From positions 4,526,001-4,590,000 of the forward strand of contig NZ_CP152474.1 of assembly GCF_039727615.1 (NCBI RefSeq): a DNA stretch of 64,000 nucleotides, read 5' to 3'. Positions 8,902-56,710 of the stretch are shown piece after piece. The translations under genes were made by a program, and so were the position numbers. The notes under the pieces are model-generated. The model had not been told where the DNA came from. It was given only the letters and a program-made list of their open reading frames with translations, and searched no databases. Position 1 is the first letter of the stretch. Every line of letters begins with the position of its first letter. The stretch is from Leclercia sp. S52 (GTDB lineage Bacteria; Pseudomonadota; Gammaproteobacteria; Enterobacterales; Enterobacteriaceae).

Positions 8902-9299
8902 AAGAGAAGCCCTCCGAAGGGGTAAGACTGGACAAATGGCTGTGGGCTGCCCGCTTTTACAAAACGCGCGCCCTCGCCCGCGAAATGATTGAAGGCGGCA
9001 AAGTGCATTACAACGGGCAGCGCAGCAAACCGAGCAAGCTCGTGGAGCTGAACGCCACCCTGACTCTGCGTCAGGGCAACGACGAACGGACGGTGATTGT
9101 GAAAAACATCACCGAACAGCGTCGCCCGGCAACGGAAGCCAGCACCCTGTATGAAGAGACGGCAGAAAGCGTTGAAAAGCGCGAGAAGATGGCGCAGGCG
9201 CGAAAGCTGAATGCGCTGACCATGCCGCATCCCGACAGGCGACCGGACAAGAAAGAACGTCGCGATCTGATTAAATTTAAAAATGGCGAGAATGAGTGA
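8898..9299 (+). CDS. hslR: Ribosome-associated heat shock protein Hsp15
   Basis: A 133-aa basic RNA-binding protein with an S4 domain at about residues 9-65 ([23 protein letters not shown], then [10 protein letters not shown]) and a charged C-terminal tail. Hsp15 binds free 50S subunits that carry a nascent chain after stalled translation and helps recycle them. It overlaps yrfG by four bases and precedes hslO by 17 bases, the conserved heat-shock order. Confidence 0.96.
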
Positions 9300-48097: not shown

Positions 48098-49392
48098 CAT
48101 CGCTCCTGTTTGATCTGCAGTTTACGCAGCATTTCACGCGTAACCAGCACGATGCCTTCTTCTGAGCGGTAGAAACGGCGCGCGTCCTCTTCCGCGTTTT
48201 CTCCAATTACCATGCCTTCCGGAATGACGCAGGCACGGTCGATAACGCAACGACGCAGGCGGCACGAGCGGCCAACCCAGACGTCGGGTAACAATACTGA
48301 CGAATCAATGTTGCAGAAGGAGTTCACCCGCACGCGCGGGAACAGCACCGACTGCACCACCACCGAGCCCGAGATAATGCACCCGCCGGAGACCAGCGAG
48401 TTCAGCGTCATGCCGTGGCTGCCCGAGCGGTCCTGGACAAATTTCGCCGGCGGCAGAGACTCCATGTGGGTACGGATCGGCCAGTTGTGGTCGTACATAT
48501 CCAGTTCCGGGGTCACCGAGGCCAGATCGAGGTTAGCCTTCCAGTACGCCTCCAGGGTGCCGACATCGCGCCAGTACGGTTCTGAATTAGGATCGGACTG
48601 CACGCAGGAGAGTGGGAACGGATGTGCATAGGCCATGCCAGATTTGGTGATTTTCGGGATGATATCTTTGCCGAAGTCGTGGCTGGATTTCTCATCCTTG
48701 TCGTCTTCTTCCAGCAGCTGATAAAGGTAATCTGCATCAAAGACATAGATCCCCATACTGGCCAGCGCTTTGGTGTCGTCACCCGGCATTGATGGCGGGT
48801 TCGCCGGTTTTTCAACGAAATCGATCACTTTGTCGTTTTCATCTACCGCCATCACGCCAAAGGCCGTCGCCTCGGCAACGGGCACCGGCATACAGGCCAC
48901 GGTGCAGCGTGCCCCTTTTTCGACGTGGTCGATGAGCATGCGCGAGTAGTCCTGCTTGTAGATGTGGTCCCCGGCGAGGATCACCACGTACTCGGCGTCG
49001 TAGCGACGAATAATGTCGAGGTTTTGCGTCACCGCATCGGCGGTACCGCGATACCAGTTTTCGCCATGCACGCGCTGTTGGGCAGGTAACAGGTCGACAA
49101 ACTCGTTCATCTCCTCACTGAAGAACGACCAGCCGCGCTGAATATGCTGCACCAGGGTGTGTGACTGGTACTGGGTGATCACGCCAATACGGCGAATGCC
49201 TGAATTCAGGCAGTTTGACAGGGCAAAATCGATAATACGGAATTTCCCACCGAAGTGGACGGCGGGCTTGGCGCGCTTAATCGTTAAATCTTTTAATCGG
49301 GTACCGCGGCCACCAGCAAGAATCAGGGCAACAGACTTCAATGGCAGCTGACGCGCCAACATTAGAGGGTCGTTCTTATCTAACCTAACCAT
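48097..49392 (-). CDS. glgC: Glucose-1-phosphate adenylyltransferase GlgC
   Basis: A 431-aa ADP-glucose pyrophosphorylase, the committed and allosteric step of glycogen synthesis. The N-terminal nucleotidyltransferase has [11 protein letters not shown] and WYRGTADAV; the C-terminal left-handed beta-helix carries hexapeptide repeats ([22 protein letters not shown] region). The ATG at 49392 follows AGGAG with six-base spacing and gives [16 protein letters not shown]. Its stop overlaps the glgA start. Confidence 0.97.
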
Positions 49393-55813: not shown

Positions 55814-55896
55814 GCCGGGTGGCGGCTTCGCCTTACCCGGCCTACAAATGCTCCCGGTACGAAATGTAGGCCGGGTAAGCGCAAGCGCCACCCGGC
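55814..55896. repeat. REP/BIME pair left of the P4-like cassette
   Basis: GCCGGGTGGCGGCTTCGCC..CCCGGCCTAC (55814-55845) and GTAGGCCGGGTAAGCGC..CACCCGGC (55866-55896). Together with the pair at 56711-56794 it brackets the 148-aa cassette. Confidence 0.8.
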
Positions 55897-55899
55897 TTT

Positions 55900-56346
55900 T
55901 TACAGCAGCACGACACCTTCATCTGTGCGCAGCCAGCGCGGTGCTTTCAGCGTATCGCTATAAAACCCAACCAGTTCCTGGAGTAAATCTCCCGCCACTC
56001 TTTCATCACTTTTTGTCAGCGATTGATTCAGGATCAGCTGTGTTAACAGCTGGCAAAAACGTCCTAACTGATCCACTTCCGGTTCAAATACGGGCAGCGC
56101 CAGCGGTAAGTCATCCACCGTCAGGCTCGTCTTTAAATACTCTGGAACAGGTTCAAGCAGCGTTGACTGAAGCAAAGCAAGGCAGGCAGAAAGCCGCCCG
56201 CACACCGCCATTTTCTGGGCCGGATCGTCGCATTCAACCAGTGCGTCAACAAATTGCGCGCAGTTGTCTGCCAGCTCGGTGAAATCGGTGTTGTGATTGA
56301 ATGGCGTGGTAAATAAAAAATGAGAAAAGCTAAGGGTAGTAGTCAT
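55900..56346 (-). CDS. Uncharacterised 148-aa protein of a satellite-phage-like cassette
   Basis: The ATG at 56346 follows GGAGG with seven-base spacing. The product (MTTTLSFSHFLFTTPFNHNTDFTELADN, ending APRWLRTDEGVVLL) is acidic, mostly helical by composition, has three to four scattered cysteines and lacks a signal peptide or membrane helix. No family is recognised. The long structured leader upstream resembles the P4 immunity region, and its last element contains this gene's ribosome site, so expression is probably RNA-controlled. The cassette sits between yhgN and gntU, flanked by REP pairs; no integrase or other phage gene is adjacent. Confidence 0.75.
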   Translation of the reverse strand: MTTTLSFSHFLFTTPFNHNTDFTELADNCAQFVDALVECDDPAQKMAVCGRLSACLALLQSTLLEPVPEYLKTSLTVDDLPLALPVFEPEVDQLGRFCQLLTQLILNQSLTKSDERVAGDLLQELVGFYSDTLKAPRWLRTDEGVVLL

Positions 56347-56353
56347 AAGACAG

Positions 56354-56573
56354 CCTCCAAAGAGTAGTTTTTATCCACCACTGGAGAGGCTAATCTCGCT
56401 GGTGGCGGAACCGAGCAGGGTTAGCCTTACCGGCCTCTTTGGATACCGGCGCGTCTTGCGACGCCCCCGCTCGGCCCACCGTTGGAGTGTAGCTAAGCGC
56501 GCGACACAAAAATACTTGTGTCACCAAAGAGGTAGTACAGGAGGCTAATCCTGACGCCTGATTTTGCAGGCGT
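56354..56573 (-). ncRNA. P4 CI-like regulatory leader RNA with three alternative pairing elements
   Basis: On minus, in order: A' TTAGCC (56548-56543), A CCTCTTTGG (56532-56524), hairpin GACACAA..TTGTGTC (about 56522-56503), B CCAAAGAGG (56442-56434), B' GGCTAA (56426-56421), C' TTAGCC (56393-56388), C CTCTTTGGAGG (56364-56354). A'A can pair with BB' or BB' with C'C, correctly nested. C contains the GGAGG of the 148-aa gene. This matches the seqA-seqB-seqC plan by which phage P4 CI RNA controls transcription. A 5' hairpin (CGCCTG..CAGGCG, about 56570-56553) precedes it. Confidence 0.6.
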
Positions 56574-56710
56574 GGCAAAAAGATACCGCTTTGCTGATGG
56601 TCTATCAAGCGAGGCTCTGGAAGGCTGCTCGCATAACCAGAAATTAAATCTCCAGCGGCGATTTTCTTTGCCGGGAGCAGAGGTCTACGTTTCCTGCACA
56701 CACAAAAAAA

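Follow-up and report, generated by a model that had tools for sequence, protein, structure and literature searches.

A C4-family antisense RNA, identified by a match above the curated cut-off of Rfam, lies at 56486-56398(-) in the leader of a 148-aa open reading frame (ORF) within the window, that is, the whole stretch of 64,000 nucleotides of the Leclercia chromosome that was analyzed. This RNA probably silences an element-derived effector that occupies the position of kil in satellite phage P4 and of icd in phage P1. The first-pass annotation of the locus had proposed a solitary cassette with the logic of P4 CI; beyond that reading, the RNA is a member of a named family, and the protein belongs to a large, multicopy family, members of which are also found on integrative islands. 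The cassette consists of the following elements.

56580..56608, minus strand: sigma-70-type promoter match TTGATA-17-TATCTT, just 5' of the first hairpin (hexamer match)
56554..56573, minus strand: 5' hairpin ACGCCTG-CAAAAT-CAGGCGT, probable transcript start (sequence, fold, isrK and c4-a1b1 alignments below their cut-offs)
56543..56548, minus strand: b1, TTAGCC, within the hairpin loop 56553-56538 (sequence, covariation, fold)
56524..56532, minus strand: a1, CCTCTTTGG (sequence, covariation)
56503..56522, minus strand: hairpin of GACACAA (56522-56516) and TTGTGTC (56509-56503), between a1 and C4 (fold of 56573-56427)
56398..56486, minus strand: C4 antisense RNA (RF01695), a long outer stem closing two inner hairpins (Rfam, fold)
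56434..56442, minus strand: a' loop of C4, CCAAAGAGG (sequence, covariation)
56421..56426, minus strand: b' of C4, GGCTAA (sequence, covariation)
56388..56393, minus strand: b2, TTAGCC (sequence, covariation)
56354..56364, minus strand: a2, CTCTTTGG, running into the Shine-Dalgarno sequence GGAGG (56358-56354) (sequence, covariation)
55900..56346, minus strand: target ORF, 148 aa, unnamed family (ORF, profile search, dN/dS)
55830..55899, no strand: REP-like GC-rich palindrome directly 3' of the stop codon (by eye), possibly a terminator and recombination site

Architecture of the leader

The elements follow the order expected for C4, b1-a1-C4-b2-a2, with the Shine-Dalgarno sequence overlapped by a2. 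Two triplets of complementary elements had been described at this locus, and the sequence check reproduced them to the base, CCTCTTTGG (56532-56524), CCAAAGAGG (56442-56434) and CTCTTTGGAGG (56364-56354) in one, and TTAGCC (56548-56543), GGCTAA (56426-56421) and TTAGCC (56393-56388) in the other; the GACACAA/TTGTGTC hairpin and the ORF (56346-55900) were also located as described, and the last element of the first triplet indeed lies at the ribosome-binding site. The suggested kinship with P4 CI was borne out by the match to RF01695 (66.5 bits against a curated cut-off of 45; E 7.9e-12 for the 5 kb searched), and the same model matches P4 at 8507-8420(-), within the annotated cI gene in the immunity region (74.9 bits), and phage P1 at 48337-48422 (68.8 bits). 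By this model, P4 CI and the window RNA are members of one RNA family. Folded alone, the C4 RNA reaches -49.8 kcal/mol (z -4.4), and the fold of the 147-nt leader (56573-56427) is dominated by long-range pairing between a1 and a'. Two other families were considered for the 5' part of the leader and rejected: c4-a1b1 (RF03163), which works alike but scores 37.3 bits, below its cut-off of 46.7, and isrK (RF01394), with 45.6 bits against a cut-off of 50. Among the 115 anchored leaders, a subset of the 128 collected leaders with C4 described below, the best-scoring hexamer pair is located 11 nt 5' of the CTG anchor of the first hairpin in 88, and the promoter spacer is 17 nt in 94.

A separate observation concerns annotated coding sequences in such leaders. 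A leader ORF in the window, 56393-56701(-), weakly matches Phage_ASH (PF10554; 17.7 bits, cut-off 26), and E. coli genes annotated as "ash family protein" overlap the C4 RNA at L069 (9091-9264), L070 (9140-9298) and L071 (9143-9301, with C4 at 9139-9226). Part of this family may be translated C4 leader.

Covariation and turnover of the pairing code

In total, 169 cassettes, each a unique combination of leader and protein, were collected, a non-random sample with loci taken from the matches listed by the search tools rather than from all matches, and local alignment identified C4 in 128 of them. In these 128 leaders, the mean longest exact complement to C4 was 8.0, 8.1, 7.1 and 7.2 nt at a1, a2, b1 and b2, respectively, compared to 4.9, 4.5, 5.0 and 4.6 nt when the C4s were dealt out randomly (highest mean 5.35 nt in 5,000 permutations). 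Matches of at least 7 nt were present in 114 leaders at a1, 112 at a2, 127 at b1 and 126 at b2, so that the loop match was shorter in 14 leaders at a1 and in 16 at a2. The leader elements are beyond chance because the Rfam score, the z value of the fold and the cognate matches, which exceed those of all 5,000 permutations, say so jointly.

Covariation was assessed in a structural alignment of 40 leaders, namely, that of the window plus every other one of the remaining leaders in a set of 79 with distinct codes. In the upstream half (a1-a' and b1-b'), 96.1% of 588 cells were paired and 134 had changed on both sides, against 37.7 in shuffles; the covariation score was 0.622, compared to 0.220 in shuffles (none of 500 reached the observed value) and at most 0.117 in slid versions. 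The downstream half (a'-a2 and b'-b2) behaved alike, with 97.8% of 546 cells paired, 134 changed on both sides against 35.5 in shuffles, and a score of 0.640 compared to 0.203 (again reached by 0 of 500) and at most 0.108 in slid versions; relatedness is kept by the slid versions but not by the shuffles. The number of further pair types, a weak measure, was barely above the shuffles, 34 of 500 (upstream) and 37 of 500 (downstream) of which reached the count. The covariation implied by the initial reading of the triplets is accordingly present, with changes on both sides in 13 of 15 upstream and 11 of 14 downstream pairs.

The code itself is highly diverse: the 128 leaders contain 60 a loops and 18 b strings, the latter falling into eight b classes, in 82 a/b pairs. 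Both codes were common to just 16 of the 85 cassette pairs with proteins more than 85% identical; when single letters are counted, a differs in 66 of these pairs and b in 52. Requiring at least 2 letters for a difference in a, and another class for a difference in b, lowers these numbers to 57 and 49, respectively, and 67 pairs then differ in at least one of the two codes. For example, at a single Citrobacter locus, L017 and L018 encode 96.6% identical proteins behind leaders that are 77.6% identical and differ in a, and L018 and L019 differ in b as well as in one letter of a. In a quickly built protein tree, the minimum number of changes is 55 for b, compared to 68.6 with shuffled labels (minimum 60), and 87 for a, compared to 105.1 (minimum 99); the corresponding minima are 15 for the presence of C4 and 14 for that of HTH. 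By these sequence comparisons, turnover is faster for the pairing code than for the protein, and the code shows some inheritance, though close to random. Of 101 cassette pairs within the same genome, 1 had both codes in common, where 4.2 would be expected, a difference that is not significant (P 0.076). Nine of 21 island codes recur among 66 solitary codes; none of the 21 sampled island codes equals that of the window, and six exact IMG/VR matches to the 16-base string around the window a loop were judged by eye not to be C4-like in context.

The protein family and its genomic settings

No family with a useful E value was found for the 148-aa protein in Pfam, NCBIfam, PADLOC or PHROGs, no fitting family was found in Pfam or PHROGs for 28 diverse members of its family, and a test for anti-phage defense returned 0 PADLOC families at E 1. 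The predicted structure is helical (mean pLDDT 88.8), and a structure search with this model yielded no informative match. Profile search assigned 969 clusters to the family (among 8,000 scored candidates), with at least one match in 87 of 294 Enterobacteriaceae genomes and 46 of 147 genera and up to 13 matches per genome, counts that can include fragments. In 968 of 5,426 complete E. coli genomes, one place covers at least 80% of the 951-base leader-plus-ORF query. The family is nearly missing from phage collections and was found in 7 of 72,556 plasmid records, three of them longer than 1 megabase. Judging from dN/dS, the ORF is under purifying selection, with a median of 0.28 across 502 cassette pairs, 0.09 to 0.52 (5 to 95%) among 404 pairs with C4, 0.10 to 0.72 among 13 pairs without C4, and ∼0.16 between the window ORF and L007.

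Beyond its start, the 148-aa protein shows no similarity to the 13 annotated P4 proteins. Codons 1 to 10 are identical to the P4 ORF start ATGGCTACAACCCTTACC at a mean of 18.1 of 30 nt across the 169 cassettes (20 of 30 in the window), compared to 9.8 for codons 11 to 20 and 7.6 (maximum 15) for in-frame control stretches, and the 20 nt 5' of the start match P4 at a mean of 8.4 of 20 ungapped, little above chance. The P4 record annotates only the longer cI product where ATGGCTACAACCCTTACC begins, after the a2-like site; we take the ORF that follows this site to be kil and the first P1 ORF after a2 to be icd. About 10 codons of the ORF may thus still belong to the regulatory module, beyond which different proteins would be attached.

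The cassettes come in two forms, a mobile one (C4-ORF-HTH_35, often beside integrases and defense cargo) and a solitary one at intergenic sites. Of the 128 C4 cassettes, 29 have an HTH_35-like gene, in some cases fragmentary, 3' of the ORF; in 28 of these 29, the ORF stop lies within ATGA, the configuration of a four-base gene overlap. Integrase genes or fragments lie nearby in the annotated island examples. A tRNA gene accompanies three of the five, and in four the cargo comprises AbiE, restriction-modification, reverse transcriptase, or RelE-, MazF- or Rhs-type genes. By the HTH_35 test, the other 99 C4 cassettes are solitary, although an integrase homolog was detected in the available flank of three (L049, L053 and L190). 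Among the cassettes, with and without C4, whose flanks extend 3 kb or more in both directions, 111 of 132 lacked homologs of the sampled island proteins, a screen that would miss other integrases. The description of the window cassette as solitary and integrase-free agrees with searches of the 64 kb at E 1e-3, in which neither the 13 P4 proteins nor 7 island proteins (integrases and HTH_35) found a match. By this search, the neighborhood shows no sign of the integrase, alpha primase and helper-hijacking genes of a P4-like satellite, and the cassette is not assigned to that class.

The window cassette is flanked by the genes for MarC (yhgN) and a GntP-type permease (gntU), an interval that is one of several sites and where both the presence and the orientation of the cassette vary. 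A cassette or remnant adjoins yhgN in 7 of 24 genomes that carry the same genus code as the window (its own included; ∼1.5 kb examined), and intervals of ∼50 to 95 bases without a cassette also exist. The window cassette and one remnant point toward yhgN and the other five away from it; L010, from another collection, points to yhgN. The interval appears plastic by eye in L210, L222, L225 and L228, where REP-like arrays, an IS-like gene or an integrase-like ORF adjoin yhgN. L009 and L012, two closely similar cassettes from different sites, have in common a stretch from about -331 to +480 around the start codon that ends near REP-like repeats, which suggests that cassettes may move or invert via such repeats.

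Homologs were expected to carry this leader, as is the case for 128 of the 169 cassettes; the remaining 41 have no recognizable C4, and C4 control is therefore dispensable. Several of the 41 lost C4 by visible deletion, and the fusion of b1 to b2 in L217 suggests that such loss can occur between the direct repeats of C4. Proteins of 135 to 180 aa are still encoded by 35 of them, 15 of which belong to a longer, 159- to 177-aa class. Five paralogs (L111, L126, L130, L156 and L187) have no C4 leader at all, and dN/dS values of 0.10 (L126/L187) and 0.15 (L130/L156) indicate purifying selection. By eye, the DNA immediately upstream in L111, L126 and L130 ends in an acetyltransferase-like ORF.

The window's own genome also contains decayed cassette copies, an orphan C4 (L059; 2176496-2176582(+)) whose ORF lacks a start, and a C4-less paralog (L272) that starts at 1589680(+). 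The orphan C4 is perfectly complementary to the ribosome-binding region of the paralog over 12 nt (CCGTGCATAAAG), and no equally long match to L272 was found among 154 C4s from other genomes; this complementarity could reflect trans-silencing or shared descent of a2. In the same genome, L060 (3801000-3808000, with C4 at 2912-2998) has another C4 with a different code and an ORF that has diverged to 37% identity; this pair seems to lie between genes resembling hydN and hyc, beside an IS3-type transposase-like ORF (by eye).

Candidate mechanism, alternatives and significance

C4 and CI RNAs are classic immunity regulators of phages and satellites. The P1/P7 immI region (C4-icd-ant) resembles the window in its Rfam family, target order and first ORF directly after a2; however, the P1 ORF is different, the P1 b code is TTGACAG, and the window has no ant and lies outside a phage. 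P4, with CI RNA (seqA/seqB/seqC) and kil, shares RF01695 and similar first ten codons, but no P4 protein homolog is present in the window. The 5' hairpin element resembles isrK of the Salmonella Gifsy-1 isrK-orf45-anrP-antQ region, below the cut-off as noted, whereas the 148-aa ORF behind the window leader belongs to another family. The E. coli and Salmonella islands (Integrase_1, HTH_35, defense cargo) encode a 153- to 156-aa homolog with a C4 leader, followed by HTH_35 (in some cases fragmentary) and, in most, integrases, with a tRNA gene in three of five; the window has none of these. Published work describes repression of Ant synthesis in trans by P1 C4, which binds around the ribosome-binding site, as well as processing of P4 CI and its pairing with seqA and seqC, leading to premature termination (PMC8546580, PMC12197685, PMC4825925); SeqA is presented there as a structural homolog of IsrK (PMC4825925), and c4 antisense RNA is listed for Proteobacteria and phages (PMC2864571). 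Among the matches listed in the openly licensed literature, no title or abstract dealt with this protein family or with C4 cassettes that are solitary and chromosomal, which is weak evidence that a C4-controlled, unnamed gene family is novel.

Under the favored explanation, one promoter would produce a single leader-plus-ORF transcript from which the C4 RNA is probably excised. Its a' loop and b' strand would pair with a1 and b1 upstream and with a2 and b2 downstream; pairing at a2 would mask the Shine-Dalgarno sequence and leave the ORF untranslated, transcription would probably end early, as in P1 and P4, and C4 could act in trans on any transcript of the same code. In islands, the ORF would be translationally coupled to the HTH_35 regulator, and the solitary form in the window would be a stranded, still selected descendant of islands, encoding an antirepressor- or kil-like effector that is set free when C4 falls. 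Sequence supports the RNA family, the pairing code and its covariation, the promoter match, the Shine-Dalgarno overlap, the island gene overlap and purifying selection; the silencing mechanism is carried over from the published P1 and P4 work.

The position and start that the ORF shares with P4 kil, together with the AbiE, restriction-modification, reverse transcriptase or toxin-antitoxin cargo of islands, would also suit an RNA antitoxin-toxin pair, in which an unstable C4 restrains a kil-like growth inhibitor that is freed when a phage shuts off host transcription, causing abortive infection. This is a possible but unlikely alternative: some C4-less ORFs remain intact under purifying selection (the two pairs above), which would be unlikely for a strong toxin, the 35 proteins encoded without C4 are at odds with a simple toxin, and PADLOC gave no match. 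Alternatively, the C4 RNA could be the selected product, silencing incoming islands or prophages of the same code in trans, with the ORF as a passenger. The faster turnover of the code, the sharing of nine island codes with solitary cassettes and the nonsignificant deficit of code sharing within genomes fit this version, which we nevertheless regard as distinctly unlikely given purifying selection on the ORF, the absence of the window code from the sampled island codes and the lack of C4-like context around the IMG/VR matches.

A functionless remnant of a P4-like satellite or prophage that has since been lost would account for the solitary state, the flanking REP-like repeats, the patchy distribution in the genus and the decayed copies in the same genome, but is improbable given that the promoter match, C4, Shine-Dalgarno sequence and ORF are all intact, that dN/dS is ∼0.16 and that covariation persists in a set dominated by solitary cassettes (99 of 128). 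Even less probable is a purely cis-acting attenuator or riboswitch without a diffusible RNA; the dominance of a1-a' pairing in the leader fold speaks for it, whereas two separate target sets flanking one compact fold constitute C4 architecture, and P1 C4 acts in trans (PMC8546580).

A bolder and unlikely, though not fanciful, extension is that enterobacteria keep a repertoire of solitary C4 cassettes whose individual (a,b) codes provide RNA-based exclusion, with mobile islands of the same code silenced as they enter, the code being swapped wholesale over a conserved protein and evolving like a heteroimmunity type. The orphan C4 of the window's own genome may already work purely in trans on the C4-less paralog elsewhere in the chromosome. 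What is new here is a C4-type switch that is chromosomal, multicopy and tied to an uncharacterized protein family, which names a gene family of common enterobacteria for study. With eight classes of b and dozens of different a loops, the 128 leaders amount to natural sets of matched and mismatched antisense pairs, with which RNA-based heteroimmunity outside phages becomes directly testable.
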